Part shown: positions 43,810-50,848 of the stretch, piece after piece
How positions within the stretch are numbered: position 1 is the stretch's first letter
Layout of the letters: each line of letters starts with the position of its first letter
Source: Pseudomonas protegens
GTDB taxonomy: Bacteria > Pseudomonadota > Gammaproteobacteria > Pseudomonadales > Pseudomonadaceae
Reading direction: 5' to 3'
Length of the DNA stretch: 64,000 bases
Assembly: GCF_013407925.2 (NCBI RefSeq)
Contig: NZ_CP060201.1
Coordinates: forward strand, 6,433,001 to 6,497,000
Program-made: the position numbers and the translations under genes
Notes under the pieces: model-generated
Told to the model about the DNA's origin: nothing
What the model saw: the letters and a program-made list of their open reading frames with translations, nothing else
Database searches by the model: none

Positions 43810-44163
43810 GGGGTCTTCTCTCTGTGTGCCCAATCAGATGATGTGCCGTCGGTTGGGCTTACCGTTCGGCTGGTTATGTGTACTGATGCACTGAGGTGGG
43901 GATCGGGTCACACCGGAAAACAAGTTTTTACAACTTTCGTGCTGCGCGGTTGTGCGCGGGCCATTAGTTGCGGCGCTTTTTAAAAACTACTGCGACAATC
44001 AGTCGCTCGCAGAGCCCGTTCGCCGCTGCCTTAGTTCTTTTGGTAATCGACGCTATAAGCAATTGATACATTCGGGCGTCAAGTTCTTGCTAATGTTACA
44101 GCCAGGTTGGCCAAACCACTGTTTCTAATAACTTTTTCGAACTTTTGGCGTCAAGGAATACTC
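43810..44163. other. Divergent intergenic region upstream of the sigma-54 regulator
   Basis: These 354 bp lie between the 88-residue gene and the enhancer-binding-protein gene and are AT-richer than the surroundings. TTGATA occurs at 44063 with TGCTAAT about 20 bases on, a possible weak promoter for the regulator. ACTGTTTC at 44118-44125 repeats exactly the left end of the palindrome upstream of fapA, which hints at shared control. No gene is seen. Confidence 0.4.
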
Positions 44164-45489
44164 ATGCTCGAAGCTCCTGTGCAGCGTCGCTTGCTGGTGG
44201 TCGATCCTTGTGACGACTGTCATCGCCTATTACCCGGATTGCGCACCATAGGTTGGGATGTCGACAGCTGTGACCTGGAAGCGGCCCGCGAGCGTTCCTG
44301 CGATGTCGGCCTGCTGCGCCTGCAGCCCTTTCATCTGGAGCGTCCGGAGGCGGTCAAGGAGTTGATCAGCCACAGCGGCACCGAGTGGATCGCGGTGTTG
44401 AGTCCTGAAGTGCTGCGGCTGCAGAAGGTCGGCGACTTCGTCTGCGAATGGTTTTTCGATTTCCATACGCTGCCGTTCGACGTGTCCCGGGTTCAGGTCA
44501 CCCTGGGCCGGGCCTTCGGCATGGCTCGCCTGCGCGGCCAGGGTTCGATTCATGTGGATCAGCCCGAGCACGAGTTGCTTGGCGACAGCCGGCCGATCCG
44601 CGACTTGCGCAAGTTGCTGAGCAAACTGGCGCCCACCGAGTCGCCGGTGCTGATTCGCGGTGAGAGCGGCACCGGCAAGGAACTGGTGGCGCGCACCCTG
44701 CATCGCCAGTCCCAGCGTCATGACAAGCCCTTTGTGGCGATCAACTGCGGGGCGATTCCCGAGCACCTGATCCAGTCCGAGCTCTTCGGCCATGAAAAGG
44801 GCGCCTTTACCGGGGCCCATCAGCGCAAGGTCGGACGTATCGAGGCGGCCCATGGCGGCACCTTGTTTCTCGATGAAATCGGCGACTTGCCATTGGAGCT
44901 GCAAGCCAATCTGTTGCGTTTTCTGCAGGAAAAACACATCGAGCGGGTTGGCGGCAGCCAGCCGATTCCAGTGGATGTGCGAGTCCTGGCGGCGACCCAC
45001 GTCGATCTGGAGGCGGCCATCGCCGGTGGCCGCTTCCGTGAAGACCTGTACTACCGGCTGAATGTGTTGCAGGTGATCACCGCGCCCTTGCGCGAGCGTC
45101 ACGGCGACCTGGGCATGCTCGCCAGTCACTTTGCCCATTTCTACAGTCAGGAAACCGGACGCCGGCCCCGCAGCTTCAGCGAGGATGCCCTGGTGGCCAT
45201 GGGCAAGCACGATTGGCCGGGCAATGTCCGTGAACTGGCCAACCGGGTGCGCCGGGGCCTGGTGCTGGCCGAGGGGCGGCAGATTCAGGCCAGTGATCTG
45301 GGGCTGCAGAGCCTCCAGGCCCACAACCTGCCCATGGGCACCCTGGAGGATTACAAGCATCGCGCCGAACGCGAGGCTCTGTGCGATGTGCTTAACCGGC
45401 ACAGCGACAACCTCAGCGTTGCGGCCCGGGTGCTGGGCATCTCGCGCCCGACCTTCTACCGGTTGCTGCACAAGCATCAGATCCGCTAG
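44164..45489 (+). CDS. Sigma-54-dependent enhancer-binding protein with degenerate receiver (VpsR/FleQ-like)
   Basis: This 441-residue transcriptional activator acts on sigma-54 RNA polymerase. Residues 1-125 look like a receiver domain, but the expected phospho-acceptor position reads DVGLLRLQPF, with Arg52 where Asp is normal, so phosphorylation is unlikely. The AAA+ domain (about 140-375) has Walker A GESGTGKE (166-173), the sigma-54 contact loop GAFTGA (213-218), Walker B LFLDEIGDLP and the arginine-finger region. A Fis-type HTH ends the protein (NLSVAARVLGISRPTFYRLL). FleQ and VpsR share this plan and bind c-di-GMP; this is not shown here. AAGGAA precedes the ATG. It converges on fapF across a shared terminator. 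Confidence 0.93.
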   Translation: MLEAPVQRRLLVVDPCDDCHRLLPGLRTIGWDVDSCDLEAARERSCDVGLLRLQPFHLERPEAVKELISHSGTEWIAVLSPEVLRLQKVGDFVCEWFFDFHTLPFDVSRVQVTLGRAFGMARLRGQGSIHVDQPEHELLGDSRPIRDLRKLLSKLAPTESPVLIRGESGTGKELVARTLHRQSQRHDKPFVAINCGAIPEHLIQSELFGHEKGAFTGAHQRKVGRIEAAHGGTLFLDEIGDLPLELQANLLRFLQEKHIERVGGSQPIPVDVRVLAATHVDLEAAIAGGRFREDLYYRLNVLQVITAPLRERHGDLGMLASHFAHFYSQETGRRPRSFSEDALVAMGKHDWPGNVRELANRVRRGLVLAEGRQIQASDLGLQSLQAHNLPMGTLEDYKHRAEREALCDVLNRHSDNLSVAARVLGISRPTFYRLLHKHQIR

Positions 45490-45505
45490 GGCGGGGAAAA
45501 ACGCC

Positions 45506-45548
45506 AAGGCCCGCGGCGATTGGGGAATCGCCGCGGGCCTTGTTGTTT
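45506..45548. terminator. Bidirectional terminator between the sigma-54 regulator and fapF
   Basis: A perfect 16-bp stem (AAGGCCCGCGGCGATT paired with its inverse) and GGGG loop is followed on the plus strand by GTTGTTTT. It sits 16 bp after the regulator stop codon and 15 bp from the fapF stop, and can end transcripts from both sides. Confidence 0.85.
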
Positions 45549-45556
45549 TGGGTGGA

Positions 45557-46858
45557 TCAGAAGTAGTACGGGAATTTCAGGCTGAAGGTGAAGTCCGGTG
45601 CGTCCTGGGTCATGCCCAGGGACAGGTTGGGCACGATGGTCAGGTGCTCGGTGGCAGCAATGGTCATGCCGACGTTGAAGTAGGCGGCGTTGGCGTCGCT
45701 GGACTCCACCGATTGCCAGTCCTGGCCGGTGTACTTGATCTTGCTCTTCTTCTGGATCTGGTCCGATACCGAGAACGCCATGCTCATTTTTTCGTTGAGG
45801 GCGAAGGCTACACCGGCGCCAATCTGGAAACTGTCGCCCAATTGCACCTTGCCGGGGATCTTCTGCCCGGCATTGGAGCTGATGTCGCCGAACGATTCTT
45901 CCAGGTTGTGGGTGTAGGACAGGCTGCCGAACAGCACCGCCGGGTCGAACGTCTTGACCAGCGAGATCCCCGGAGTCACCGACCACACACCATTACCGGT
46001 CGGCAGGCTTTCAGGCACCACCAGGTTGTTGTTGCCCGGGTCCGGATTGATGAACTTGATACCGAATGGGTCCTTGCCGGTGGGCGCCTTGACCCGCAGG
46101 CTGACCACGGCGTCAGGCAGGGAGTCGGACTCGTCGAGGAACTTGTAGGCCACCCCGACGTTGACGTCGCCCAGCGTCGGATCGCGAGTGACGGTGCTTT
46201 CCGAGATGGATTGGCTGCTGCCGCCGTTAGCGCCACCGGACTGGTAAGTCGACTCGCGATAGACCACCGGCGCGTTTATATCGAACTGCCAGCGGTTGTC
46301 CAGGTTGTAGCGGGCGGTCAGGTCCAGGGTCCAGGTGTCGGACTTGATCCGGTCCAGGTTGACGGTGCCCAGCAGGATCGAGTCCAGGGCCAGAAAGCCA
46401 TTGAGGGTCAGTTGGCGGGTGTCGTAGCGGGCATAGCTGATGCCCGTTTCAACGCTGAACTTGCCTCCGCCAAAGAAGCCGCTGGCCTCGTCGTAGAGGT
46501 TGGTCACGCTTTGCGCCGGCGTCGAGTCATCCTTGAGCGACTGGCCATAGCTGGCACCACCCGCAGCGCCCCCAGACGCTGCTGCGGCCCCTCTGCCGGC
46601 AACCTGCTGATTGCCCTTGAGGTCGGCGGGTGATTTTGCCAGGCGCTTGGGTGGCGGCGCCGCGGGCTGGTCCTCGACTTGGCGTACCCGTTGTTCCAGC
46701 ACTGCCAGCGCCTTCTGCTGCACTTCGTAACGTTGCTTCAGCTCCAGAAGTTCTTGTTTCAGGGTCTCTACGTCCGCATCGGGCGCCGCTTGCAAGGCCG
46801 CCGCCGGAAATAGAGTGCTCAAACATACAACCGCGCGCAGTGAAACCGATCGATACAT
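45557..46858 (-). CDS. fapF: FapF: outer-membrane amyloid export porin
   Basis: FapF is the trimeric beta-barrel through which Fap subunits leave the periplasm. The 433-residue protein has a signal peptide (about 1-24) and an N-terminal coiled coil (about 28-63, [20 protein letters not shown]) of the kind that trimerises and gates the pore. A Pro/Ala/Gly-rich linker carries [17 protein letters not shown] 12-strand-like barrel runs from about 130 to the C-terminal aromatic FPYYF. It is the last gene of fapABCDEF and is followed by a shared terminator. Confidence 0.95.
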
Positions 46859-46905
46859 GAAATAAACCGTCCCTTGTGAACCCCAATGGTCGAAAGTAGC
46901 TTAGT

Positions 46906-47646
46906 TCAGAATTTCATATTGCGTAGTCCATTTAGGGTGGTCAGGTTGCAGTCCAGCGCGCCTTTGCTGGGGCCGTTGTTTTGCAGGACCACGTTGAGCT
47001 GGGTCAGGTTGTTGACCAGGTTGCTGTTGCCCAGCAGCCGGGTGTTCTGCAGGACGTTGCCCTGGCCCACCTGCTGCAAGGTGCCGCCCTGGTTGGCACT
47101 GGCCAGAATGGCCATCTGGATCCCGCCATTGATCGCCGACACCGAGACACTGCCGGCGGCATTGCTGCCGGAGATGGTCTGGCCACTGAGCAGGGCCTGG
47201 CCGGGGTTGCTGCTCAGGCCGGGCGCCTGGTTGGCTTCACTGACATTGATACTGACGTTGTTGTAGGCGCTGTTGCCGTCGCCGGCGGCGCGCACCACCT
47301 GGGTCACGCCCTGGCCGGTGCCCAGGCCGGCGCCACCGATCACGTTGCCGGAGCCTTGAGAGGGGGTACTGCCGTTGCCGGTCTGGCTGATGGTGGTGAC
47401 GTAGAATTGCGGGGTGACGGTGGATTGCTGGATCTGCAGGCTACTGGTGGCGCCTATCAGGTCGCCGCTGGCATTGCGCCAGGTACTGCTCATGACGATG
47501 CCGAAACTGATGATCCGTCCCGGCATCACATAGCGGCCACGCAGTTGTGAGAGTTCCTGATCCTGAACTTCGATGGGTTTGAAACCAGCATGGGCTGGAA
47601 GCGCTGCTGCGAGACAGGCCGCTGCCAGCCAGTATGTAGTCTTCAT
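46906..47646 (-). CDS. fapE: FapE: minor amyloid subunit / extracellular chaperone-like component
   Basis: FapE is a minor component of Fap fibrils. The 246-residue protein has a signal peptide (MKTTYWLAAACLAAALPAHA), then QDQELSQLRGRYVMPGRIIS, a conserved opening of FapE, and a Gly/Asn/Ser-rich middle (TGNGSTPSQGSGNVIGGAGL). The C-terminal part has QVGQGNVLQNTRLLGNSNLV, resembling the polar repeats of FapB and FapC. The ELSQLRGRY stretch also resembles the processing-site region of other exported pseudomonad proteins. It lies 47 bp before fapF and 52 bp after fapD on the minus strand. Confidence 0.93.
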   Translation of the reverse strand: MKTTYWLAAACLAAALPAHAGFKPIEVQDQELSQLRGRYVMPGRIISFGIVMSSTWRNASGDLIGATSSLQIQQSTVTPQFYVTTISQTGNGSTPSQGSGNVIGGAGLGTGQGVTQVVRAAGDGNSAYNNVSINVSEANQAPGLSSNPGQALLSGQTISGSNAAGSVSVSAINGGIQMAILASANQGGTLQQVGQGNVLQNTRLLGNSNLVNNLTQLNVVLQNNGPSKGALDCNLTTLNGLRNMKF

Positions 47647-47698
47647 CTGCTGCTCCCGGAGCGTCCTGCCCCCCTTTTTTTATCGTTGCGCGCTCCTC

Positions 47699-48379
47699 CT
47701 AGAAGAAGTCGCTCTGGATGAAACCGAAATCCATCAGTTCCGCATCTTTGACTGGATAGAAGGTATCGAGCTTGTTTTTCGCGGTCAGCGGGGCGGGCGG
47801 ATCGAGCAAGGCATTGGCCTTGTCATAGCCCGGGCCGATGATGGCAAAGACGATGCCGTTCCAGCCCTTGACGAAGTCTTCATGGGTGTAGCGTTTGTGA
47901 CCCAGCACCGGATCACCGATATAGACCCAGTCTTTCTGGGCCCGCTGCATCACCACGAAGTGCTTGTAGCCGCGAATTTCCATCAGTACGACCACCGGAA
48001 TGGTCACCGCCTCGAGCTTTTCCGGAGGAATCCGGTAGCCCCTGGCGCGCATGCCGATGCTTTCCGCGTAGCGTTTCATGTCAAGCATCGAGAAGCCCTG
48101 AGTCTGGACCAGCTTCTGGTCCGAATTCATCAGCATGCCCTTGATCACTTGTTCTTCGTTGACGTCCAGCCAGTAGGCCTGACGCAGGATGGTTGCCAGT
48201 GCCGCAGCACCGCAACTGAAGTCGGTCTTCTGTTCGACGATGTCGCTGAATTTGCGCTCACGCACACTCTGCACTTGCTTGAAGATCAGGCCGCCGCCCG
48301 CGAGTCCGGCCACGGCCATCTGCGCGGAGTAAGCGGGGCCGCATAGGCTCAACAGTAGAATGATGATCGCAGTACGCAT
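47699..48379 (-). CDS. fapD: FapD: periplasmic C39-like cysteine protease
   Basis: FapD is required for fibril secretion and assembly. The 226-residue protein has a signal peptide (about 1-19) followed by a C39-peptidase domain. The catalytic triad is visible: Cys56 in TDFSCGAAALATIL, His140 in RGYKHFVVM, and Asp156 in WVYIGDPVLGH. Double-glycine-leader proteases of transporters share this domain; here it is free-standing and exported. The likely substrates are Fap components. An intrinsic terminator precedes it, between fapC and fapD, so its expression probably depends on readthrough. Confidence 0.95.
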   Translation of the reverse strand: MRTAIIILLLSLCGPAYSAQMAVAGLAGGGLIFKQVQSVRERKFSDIVEQKTDFSCGAAALATILRQAYWLDVNEEQVIKGMLMNSDQKLVQTQGFSMLDMKRYAESIGMRARGYRIPPEKLEAVTIPVVVLMEIRGYKHFVVMQRAQKDWVYIGDPVLGHKRYTHEDFVKGWNGIVFAIIGPGYDKANALLDPPAPLTAKNKLDTFYPVKDAELMDFGFIQSDFF

Positions 48380-48404
48380 GATCGTTACGCCTGGTGAGAC
48401 TGTG

Positions 48405-48426
48405 GAAAAGCCCCGTTTCCGGGGCT
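48405..48426 (-). terminator. Intercistronic terminator between fapC and fapD
   Basis: On the minus strand AAAGCCCCG and CGGGGCTTT form a 9-bp stem around a 4-base loop, ending in CTTTTCC. It lies 17 bp after the fapC stop codon and 26 bp before the fapD ATG. A leaky terminator here would give more fapABC than fapDEF message. Confidence 0.75.
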
Positions 48427-48442
48427 TTCGTTACGATCGCTA

Positions 48443-49432
48443 CTACATGCAGGCTTTGCAGCCGGCGGCGATGGACAGCGAGTTGCTTTGTTGGTTGCCC
48501 ACACCGGCCGAGACGTTGGCGCCGCCGTTGCCGGAGAAGCCGTTCATCGAGTTGGTCATGCTGGCGTTGTTGACCACTGGGTTTTTCCAGCCGTCTTTGG
48601 TCAGCACTTGCTGGGTCCAGTAGCCGGCCAGTTCGATGGTGCCTTGTTCCTTGAAGGTGAGTTTTTGATCGTCGTTGCCGTGGCCTTTGTTGTCGCCATA
48701 GCCATGACCGCTGTGATCGTCGCCGCCTTCGATCTTGCCGCTGCCGGTGCCTTTGTAGGTGCCGGAGGCCACGAAGCCGCCAGTGAGGGTGTCTTTTTTG
48801 TAGGCTTGGACACCTTTGTTATCCACCACCAGGTTGGTGGAGGCTTGGTTGGCCGAGGCGGCGGCGGTGGCTACGCGACCACCGGATACGGCAATGGCCA
48901 GGTTGTTTTTCTGTTGGTTGAAGTCGCCGGCGGTCACGTTGACGCCGATGTTGCCGGAGCCGTTGTTGCCGGAGTTGTTCATCGTAGCGTTGTTCTGTGT
49001 CGACGAGTTTTTCACGTAGTTGTTGTTGTTGACCTGGGTGGCGCTGGAGGCGGCCACGGCGCTGCCGAAGATGAAGCTTTCGTCAGCGGTTGCCAGGGCA
49101 GCGGCGTTGTCTTGTTGGTTGCCGTCGCCGGCGGCGACGTTGGCACCCATGTTGCCGTTGGAGCTGTTCAGGGAGTTGTCCATCTTGGCGTTGTTGTTGG
49201 TGCCCTGATTTTTCACCACGTTGGTGTTGCTGTTCTGCACGTCGATTACTGCAGCACCGGCCCCAGCGGTGATTTGCAGCAGGGTGTTGAGATCCGGACC
49301 TTGGTTGTGATCGCCATGGCCATTGCCATGACCGCCGTTGTTACCATGTTCGTTACCACCTGCCTGAGCGGCCATTGCCATGACTGCGGCCAGTGCGAAA
49401 ACCAGTGGTTTGAGAGCCATTGTAGGTTTCAT
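48443..49432 (-). CDS. fapC: FapC: major functional-amyloid subunit
   Basis: FapC is the main fibril protein of the Fap biofilm amyloid. The 329-residue protein has a signal peptide ending near AAQA, then a His/Gly/Asn-rich stretch (GGNEHGNNGGHGNGHGDHNQ). Three imperfect amyloid repeats share G-x-NV-x-AG-xx-NQQ-x-N: GANVAAGDGNQQDNAAAL, GVNVTAGDFNQQKNNLAI and GANVSAGVGNQQSNSLSI. The linker between repeats 2 and 3 is long (about 110 residues) and holds a second His/Asp/Gly-rich part (GGDDHSGHGYGDNKGHGNDD). The C-terminus is CKACM, the conserved CxxC. All these match FapC; the His-rich parts suggest metal binding. Confidence 0.97.
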   Translation of the reverse strand: MKPTMALKPLVFALAAVMAMAAQAGGNEHGNNGGHGNGHGDHNQGPDLNTLLQITAGAGAAVIDVQNSNTNVVKNQGTNNNAKMDNSLNSSNGNMGANVAAGDGNQQDNAAALATADESFIFGSAVAASSATQVNNNNYVKNSSTQNNATMNNSGNNGSGNIGVNVTAGDFNQQKNNLAIAVSGGRVATAAASANQASTNLVVDNKGVQAYKKDTLTGGFVASGTYKGTGSGKIEGGDDHSGHGYGDNKGHGNDDQKLTFKEQGTIELAGYWTQQVLTKDGWKNPVVNNASMTNSMNGFSGNGGANVSAGVGNQQSNSLSIAAGCKACM

Positions 49433-49495
49433 GGTGTTTCTCCGGTGCTTATTAGTTGGTTAAGTGTTGGTACTTTCTAATTGCACTACGACGGG

Positions 49496-50074
49496 TCAAT
49501 CGGCGACCCGGATGCTCAGGGTGTTAGCCATGCGGTTCCCCACCCCGGCACTCTGGTTCACCTGAATCACCCCACGGCTGCCGGTGAAGGCCTGGTCGCT
49601 GGTAACGACCTGGCGGCTGCCTTGCTGAGGGTCAGATGCGCCCGAGCTTGGTAACAGCGCGACGTTCTGCTGCGAGAGCGCGCTGTCGTCGATGCTTTGC
49701 GGATTGGCGCTGATGCTGATCCGCAAGGCATTGACCATCTGGTTGTTGGCCCCGGAGGACTGGTTGACACCCAGTGCGCCGTTGCCGTTGCTGAAAGAGT
49801 GGCCGCCGATGGTGCTGCTGGCATTGACCGAGCGGTCGGCTGGCGTGGTGATCTTCTGGGTCACGCTGGTGCTGGCCTTGGCATTGGTGCCGATGGCGAT
49901 GGCCCGCACGTTGGTCTGCTGTTGCTGGTCGCCGGCGGCCTGGTTGACGTTGAGGTTGCCGGTGTAGCTCGAGCCGGAGTTGATCAGGGTCGCGGTGTCC
50001 TGGACCTGAGTGGCGCTATCGGCCATGGCCGAAGTGCAGGCCAGCAGGGCGAGAAAGAGCAGTGAGGGCTTCAT
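49496..50074 (-). CDS. fapB: FapB: amyloid nucleator subunit
   Basis: FapB is the minor subunit thought to nucleate FapC polymerisation, like CsgB in curli. The 192-residue protein has a signal peptide (MKPSLLFLALLACTSAMA) and three imperfect repeats with the motif VNQ-xx-G-xx-N-xxx-N: NVNQAAGDQQQQTNVRAIAI, GVNQSSGANNQMVNALRISI and QVNQSAGVGNRMANTLSIRV. Linkers are short compared with FapC. The ATG at 50074 directly precedes the signal peptide and follows the fapA stop codon by one base, so fapA and fapB are translationally coupled. Confidence 0.96.
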   Translation of the reverse strand: MKPSLLFLALLACTSAMADSATQVQDTATLINSGSSYTGNLNVNQAAGDQQQQTNVRAIAIGTNAKASTSVTQKITTPADRSVNASSTIGGHSFSNGNGALGVNQSSGANNQMVNALRISISANPQSIDDSALSQQNVALLPSSGASDPQQGSRQVVTSDQAFTGSRGVIQVNQSAGVGNRMANTLSIRVAD

Positions 50075-50075
50075 C

Positions 50076-50519
50076 TCAATGGCCTCCAATGTTGCTCAAT
50101 GGCGCCATGCCGGAGCTGATGGAGCGGTTGATCGACCCGGAGATCGACGACCCGGAGCCGCCACCGTGACCAGCGCTCATGCCGGGCAGGCCATTGGGGT
50201 TGGTCACCACATTGAGGCCGGCGACCCCGCTGCCGTTGGGCATCACGGCGCCGCGAACCAGCGAGCCGCTGTTGATCCCGGCGAACTCGCTGTCGCTCAT
50301 TTCGTTGTTGAGTGTGCCGGTGACCGGCCCCGACGGATTGGCGTTGACCGTGGTCGGGTTGGGATCAAGATTCAGGGGGCGACCGGCAGGGGTCGGATGC
50401 ACCTGGCGTTCCAGAACGATCTGGCCATCGCCTGCCGCCAGGACCGGAAGGCAGTGCACCGCGCTGACGGCACAGCCGATCAGCAGTAGGCGGGTGAAAC
50501 CTTGCTTCAGAGTCCCCAC
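50076..50519 (-). CDS. fapA: FapA: periplasmic chaperone-like Fap protein
   Basis: FapA is the first operon product; in other strains its loss changes the FapB:FapC composition of the fibril, so it is viewed as a chaperone or distributor. The 147-residue protein has a signal peptide (about 1-29, ending VLAA) and a mature part with EFAGINSGSLVRGAVMPNG and a Gly/Ser/His-rich C-terminus (GHGGGSGSSISGSINRSISS). The start is GTG at 50519 with AAGGAA about eight bases upstream. A sigma-54-type promoter element lies 53-68 bp before it. Confidence 0.92.
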   Translation of the reverse strand: MGTLKQGFTRLLLIGCAVSAVHCLPVLAAGDGQIVLERQVHPTPAGRPLNLDPNPTTVNANPSGPVTGTLNNEMSDSEFAGINSGSLVRGAVMPNGSGVAGLNVVTNPNGLPGMSAGHGGGSGSSISGSINRSISSGMAPLSNIGGH

Positions 50520-50571
50520 GGCGGCATTCCTTCTTCTCAGTGCTGGCCCTAGTCAGCGTTGACAGGGAGAG

Positions 50572-50587
50572 AGCAGAAGCCGTGCCG
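50572..50587 (-). promoter_or_regulatory. Sigma-54 (-24/-12) promoter candidate of the fap operon
   Basis: On the minus strand CGGCACGGCTTCTGCT agrees with the sigma-54 consensus TGGCACRNNNNTTGCW at all but two defined positions. It keeps the invariant GG and GC and their 10-base spacing. The predicted start is near 50561, giving a leader of about 42 bases before fapA. A sigma-54 activator gene lies at the other end of the operon. Confidence 0.65.
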
Positions 50588-50647
50588 CTTTTGATTTGTC
50601 TTGTCGATTCAATGGCTTGCGAATACGTCCCGGCGTTTGGCGGCCTG

Positions 50648-50669
50648 ACTGTTTCATGCTTGAGACAGT
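50648..50669. promoter_or_regulatory. Candidate upstream activating site for fap
   Basis: A 22-bp near-palindrome with ends ACTGT and ACAGT, inner TCA and TGA and a 4-base centre has one mismatch per 9-bp arm. It lies about 87-108 bp upstream of the predicted sigma-54 start, the usual distance for enhancer-binding proteins. The rest of the fap upstream gap (to 50848) has one more ACTGT half-site near 50749 but no gene. Confidence 0.5.
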
Positions 50670-50848
50670 TCGCCATAGCGGCCACTAGCCATAACCTTGC
50701 AAATGCTCTGGAACAGGGGTTGCTGCGGGGGTGTATCAGTGACTTAACAGTTTTACCCGCGCGTGGCGCAGGCCCCTTAATTAGCGGCCTGACCCGCCGC
50801 CGGGTGTTTCAGAAATGGACACTCTGGCGCCCGGCCAGCGTTGCCGGA

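Follow-up and report, generated by a model that had tools for sequence, protein, structure and literature searches.

The stretch of Pseudomonas protegens DNA analysed here (64,000 nucleotides of contig NZ_CP060201.1, positions 6,433,001 to 6,497,000; hereafter the window) carries the amyloid operon fapABCDEF together with a gene for a sigma-54 activator, an arrangement whose closest described counterpart is the BrfA-RpoN-fap switch of Pseudomonas fluorescens PF07. In PF07, brfA was described as lying next to and downstream of fapA-F in the reverse direction, its open reading frame (ORF) being 1,326 bp long, a -24/-12 element was located before fapA by 5' rapid amplification of cDNA ends (5'-RACE), and deletion of rpoN or brfA lowered fap expression and abolished the mature biofilm (Guo 2022, PMC9207406). 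BrfA is further reported as an enhancer-binding protein that senses cyclic di-GMP (c-di-GMP) and directly regulates fapA (Guo 2024, as cited in a 2026 paper, PMC13101488). VpsR of Vibrio cholerae shares with BrfA the N-terminal Pfam domain and the link to c-di-GMP; its GAFTGA motif is defective and it is not sigma-54 dependent (PMC3162934, PMC5552954), in which it recalls the BrfA orthologues of fap-less genomes described below, whereas the BrfA of the window has an intact GAFTGA and would work with RpoN. An enhancer-binding protein of Burkholderia cenocepacia, BerB, binds c-di-GMP, carries GAFTGA, depends on RpoN and serves the biofilm matrix, but it is described as having no sensory domain at its N-terminus, and its target is berA instead of an amyloid operon (PMC5552954). 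A precedent for the fap-less orthologues is the NtrC of Caulobacter, an enhancer-binding protein that lacks GAFTGA and acts at sigma-70 promoters, although it belongs to another family, and its loop was lost by deletion in one genus, untied to the loss of a target operon in the text seen (PMC10274813).

The locus in the window was found to have the same anatomy as that of PF07. The activator ORF runs on the plus strand from an ATG at 44164 to a stop at 45489 (441 amino acids, 1,326 bp) and converges on fapF (45557..46858, minus strand), the operon itself being read on the minus strand from 50519 down to 45557. Pfam matches to VpsR (PF20161), Sigma54_activat (PF00158), the AAA lid and HTH_8, with an intact GAFTGA at residues 213–218, agree with an earlier note on this DNA, which had taken the gene for a sigma-54 activator with a GAFTGA loop and a Fis-type helix-turn-helix (HTH) domain. 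Compared by description, it has the place, direction and ORF length of PF07 brfA; a -24/-12 element before fapA, in the window a predicted promoter, and the Fis-type activator are also common to both modules, and no difference between them was shown. That the module is an orthologue of the published BrfA-RpoN-fap switch, and thus already known, is well supported, and together with the mechanism proposed below as a whole we give it a probability of about 0.93. Whether the link between activator and fap had been described, which the earlier note left open, can be answered in the affirmative, since it has been in print since 2022 (PMC9207406). The site geometry, a second site and the genus-wide decay of the contact loop are what the present analysis adds.

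In the proposed mechanism, BrfA would act as a c-di-GMP-responsive enhancer-binding protein. It would bind a palindrome located some 80 bp before the -24/-12 promoter of fapA, as well as a second, weaker site beyond it, contact sigma-54 RNA polymerase through GAFTGA and open the fapA promoter, so that fapA-E would be made when c-di-GMP is high. The 5'-RACE promoter, the drop in fap expression upon deletion of rpoN or brfA and the response to c-di-GMP are in print for a related strain. The switch in the window agrees with what has been published for another species and offers a testable binding site with a fixed geometry.

The predicted site is the 22-bp near-palindrome ACTGTCTCAAGCATGAAACAGT (50669–50648, minus strand, core 50650–50667), which lies 80 bp from the -24/-12 element when measured between their starts. 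It was present where the earlier note had placed it and was unique in the window, with a single match and none in each of 100 shuffles. In the -24/-12 element CGGCACGGCTTCTGCT (50587–50572, minus strand) the GG and GC are correctly spaced, as the note had claimed. Conservation was assessed in 80 named Pseudomonas fap loci, 77 of which gave fapA upstream DNA (the other three had no fapA in reach) and made 78 regions with the window. The core TGTNTCA-N4-TGANACA appeared with at most one mismatch in 77 of the 78, and counts of 84, 26, 27 and 38 at zero, one, two and three mismatches compare with 0, 0, 1.15 and 8.7 in shuffles. In 40 further loci, mostly more distant and including one from another genus and one from another family, the core was sought between 78 and 84 bp from the -24/-12 element and was seen with zero, one, two and three mismatches in 20, 5, 8 and 6 loci, all 39 at 80, 81 or 82 bp; the locus from the other family, with six mismatches, was the only one beyond three. 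The reversed core used as control never fell under five mismatches in these 40 loci.

A distal, weaker predicted site with three mismatches to the core, which the earlier note had not mentioned, lies at 50749–50732 (minus strand), upstream of the proximal site at a distance of 82 bp. Such an additional upstream site could be placed in 75 of the 78 regions, at spacings of 47 (4 regions), 57–59 (10), 69–70 (15) and 80–84 bp (46); within the searched range of 31 to 130 bp, none fell between these classes. Its score was reached by 0.7% of shuffled regions. Among species this distance varies in steps of about 11–12 bp (47, 58, 70, 82), which suggests that the helical face matters; the spacing is shared among related sequences, so that the regions do not count as independent of one another.

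The activator gene accompanies the operon in nearly all genomes examined. In 78 of the 80 named loci brfA is convergent with fapF and within about 2.5 kb of it, and in the other two the contig ends first. Genome searches with FapF as query gave matches at E 1e-15 or better in 87 of 119 genus members (86 once G043, a 31% partial match, is discounted), and BrfA was found in 98 of the 119, including all 86 FapF-bearing ones. Over 298 Pseudomonas genomes, FapF was present in 216 and BrfA matches in 251, from which G365, G367 and G431 were set aside as other proteins at 44% identity; BrfA was present in 215 of the 216 FapF-bearing genomes, the exception (G366) being 73% complete. Eight fap-bearing genomes (G051, G110, G104, G024, G003, G057, G081 and G091) carry brfA on the same contig at 28 kb to 2.1 Mb from fapF, and in all eight the proximal site was found with at most one mismatch. 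The claim that the neighbouring activator drives fapA from the -24/-12 element through the upstream palindrome is upheld by the PF07 genetics (PMC9207406), the fixed distance of the palindrome and this co-occurrence.

Several observations weigh against this reading. Binding of BrfA to this particular palindrome is a prediction from sequence. Five genomes (G009, G007, G088, G027 and G069) have only three-mismatch sites at the fixed distance. Two fap-bearing genomes carry a damaged BrfA: the gene of G052 (L228) has an internal stop, and in G268 (L285:8008-9331) the frame changes ahead of the HTH. Taken alone, the -24/-12 match is at chance level, since the 17-base consensus at two or fewer mismatches is matched 10 times in the window and 10.2 times in shuffles, CGGCACGGCTTCTGCT not being among those 10; as a stand-alone statistical signal it was rejected. 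The element is accepted because at least 9 of its 12 consensus letters are kept in all 78 fapA upstream regions, at a fixed distance to the palindrome, and because 5'-RACE established the promoter type in PF07 (PMC9207406). The observation of the earlier note, that activator, -24/-12 element and palindrome are present, is confirmed; its interpretation as a whole, which extended to control of the activator by itself, is partly supported.

Relatives that lose the fap operon retain the activator gene, usually with a decayed sigma-54 contact loop. Of the 298 genomes, 33 have a BrfA orthologue but no FapF, and the loop could be inspected in 32 of them (G280 was left out). GAFTGA was lost in 29 of these 32 copies (12 and 17 in two sets), being replaced by, for example, GAFEGA, GAFNGA or EGAHGK, or deleted; it was kept in G380, G412 and G409. 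All 117 fap-bearing copies examined had GAFTGA or, in G027, G399 and G291, GSFTGA; they comprise 79 from the window and the named loci and 38 from the 216 sampled fap-bearing genomes, two sets that may share species. According to a survey of enhancer-binding proteins, sigma-54 activation is in most cases abolished by changes in GAFTGA, those at F and T in particular, and VpsR is listed there as defective (PMC3162934); the VpsR-type trait of a defective GAFTGA with kept AAA+ and HTH domains was found in 29 of the 32 fap-less orthologues and is absent from the BrfA of the window, with its intact motif. A tree built without the loop columns placed the loss on at least five changes on well supported branches, that is, in at least five lineages; the trees are of a quick kind with several long branches, L228 being left out as a fragment. 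An advance prediction on the tie between loop and FapF was right for G285, G287, G400, G337, G423 and G434 and wrong for G409, which has GAFTGA without FapF. A test that took phylogeny into account compared the loss of fap with that of the loop and omitted the frame-changed G268 that was kept in the loop-loss tree; it gave six independent pairs, with four to five changing the same way, none the opposite way and one to two showing no difference. The median sign-test p was 0.125, and therefore the tree alone falls short of 0.05. This test and the intact loops of G380, G412 and G409 speak against a strict rule. A tie between fap and GAFTGA was not found in the open-access text searched, a scope that leaves subscription papers, including the key 2024 paper, outside. 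The genus-wide result represents a natural experiment: it points to fap as what maintains the sigma-54 contact loop of BrfA, and it predicts BrfA targets yet to be recognized in fap-less species. It is also a caution that, where an enhancer-binding protein is annotated as dependent on sigma-54, its close relatives may no longer have this capacity.

The operon is cleanly absent from the fap-less loci. In 11 of the first 12 such genomes (G093 being the exception) the 3' end of brfA lies 3–165 bp from the 3' end of a nadR-like AAA_28 gene, the very gene found just upstream of fapA in the window, where the distance is 5,360 bp. The same neighbour stands behind brfA in 12 more fap-less genomes and in G380 and G412, whose BrfA is 88–89% identical to that of the window with GAFTGA intact, a state that fits a loss of fap first and a decay of the loop later.

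The strongest rival holds that brfA in fap-less genomes is a functionless leftover, the loss of GAFTGA being the first sign of a general decay. The long branches of several fap-less lineages speak for it, as do the persistence of GAFTGA in G380, G412 and G409 and the incomplete keeping of Walker B (L[FL]LDE, 22 of 29), the arginine-finger motif (FR.DLYY, 24 of 29) and Walker A (GE.GTGK, 26 of 29) across the GAFTGA-less set. However, each of the 32 reading frames inspected is open over its full or nearly full length, and in seven GAFTGA-less pairs the HTH has a low rate of nonsynonymous change (dN 0 to 0.039, as in fap-bearing pairs, where it is ≤0.039) despite synonymous divergence (dS) of 0.28 to 1.11, while the loop, only 15 codons long, has a pairwise dN of 0.028 to 0.289, compared with 0 in five fap-bearing pairs. 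We consider this explanation unlikely, at perhaps one chance in a few. The recognition helix SRPTFYRLL was kept in 29 of 29 copies without GAFTGA, and a gene serving fap only should vanish with fap; BrfA therefore probably has a second role that does not depend on sigma-54.

Exact copies of the core elsewhere in the genomes provide candidates for such a role. In 30 fap-bearing genomes 42 exact cores were counted, 28 at fap and 14 elsewhere (reversed control 1), and the genome of the window has one at fapA and one elsewhere (L106:6531-6548, equivalent to G000:C1:6233530-6233547), the latter 195 bp before a chemotaxis receptor gene (G000:C1:6233690-6235351; Pfam 4HB_MCP_1, HAMP, MCPsignal). Taking the 31 genomes together, 8 of 15 non-fap cores lie 194–204 bp before the start of this one kind of gene (own genome, G061, G005, G071, G029, G074, G092 and G108), and all eight share a downstream GCCGATA, which resembles the -10 of flagellar sigma-28 promoters. 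The receptor gene is a candidate second target in the genome of the window. The first 12 fap-less BrfA genomes gave 16 exact cores (reversed control 1), 7 of them adjoining genes whose matches concern secretion, adhesins or polysaccharides; these boxes, at 1501–1518 of L111, L113, L115, L117, L119, L122 and L123, stand next to a type I secretion ATPase, a two-partner secretion gene, autotransporters, an RTX gene with GMP/PMI and a glycosyltransferase. No consistent -24/-12 element was detected near non-fap sites in the 24 loci scanned, and their reading as further sigma-54 promoters was rejected; a 10-of-12 match in L115 falls inside coding sequence, and the background frequency of elements scoring at least 8 is 0.53 per 330 bases. 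BrfA may bind at these sites; one of them, before an EprS-like gene, recurs in a BrfA-less genome. If it binds there, BrfA would have two jobs through the same palindrome, sigma-54-dependent at fapA and sigma-54-independent at other genes of surface life, with fap as the sole target needing GAFTGA; upon deletion of fap, with brfA usually left behind, the loop would drift while DNA binding stays under selection, yielding a VpsR-like regulator at least five times in the genus. We put this proposal at even odds.

Autoregulation of brfA, which the earlier note had raised on the grounds that the left end of the palindrome recurs upstream of the gene, fared poorly. The half site ACTGTTTC is present at 44118–44125 (plus strand), but as a half site only, and a function for it is unsupported. 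Of 79 regions, 36 have TGTTTC or GAAACA no more than 120 bp from the start of brfA, where shuffles give 5.2, and 14 have ACTGTTTC itself, a recurrence explained by conservation among close kin. The best full-core matches upstream of brfA had one (1 region), two (3), three (8), four (41) and five (26 of 79) mismatches, no better than shuffles, and a sigma-54 element at 9 of 12 was found in 0 of 79 regions, compared with 78 of 78 fapA regions at the same score. With no full site and no sigma-54 element in the 79 regions, self-control via the half site was rejected as very improbable. The 100 bases before brfA (44060–44163) are well conserved in close relatives and contain TGATACA and ACTGTTTC as half sites but no full site.

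Slightly less probable still is that the palindrome belongs to another regulator (e.g. FleQ or AmrZ), BrfA acting elsewhere or indirectly: the same core does precede other genes without a conserved -24/-12 element, and three exact cores (reversed control 0) occur in 20 genomes without a BrfA match, one before a gene judged by eye to be the EprS-type autotransporter of a BrfA-bearing genome, but 80–82 bp from a sigma-54 promoter suits an enhancer site, and exact cores are commoner in the 12 BrfA-bearing fap-less genomes (16 in 69.2 Mb) than in the 20 BrfA-less ones (3 in 99.8 Mb; binomial p 0.00014, kinship ignored). In the BrfA-less G078 and G063 (L166 and L167, 1501–1518) a perfect core lies between oxidoreductase and periplasmic binding protein genes, where the box may have another reader.

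The remaining genes of the operon in the window, all on the minus strand, are fapA (50076..50519, with a GTG start), fapB (49496..50074), fapC (48443..49432), the major amyloid subunit by position and name, fapD (47699..48379), a C39 peptidase according to Pfam, and fapE (46906..47646), placed by its position in the operon. FapF was seen in two pieces on different contigs in G016 and G035 (residues 1–94 or 1–92 and 98/100–433) and as two overlapping pieces in G346 (L286:5352-6652).

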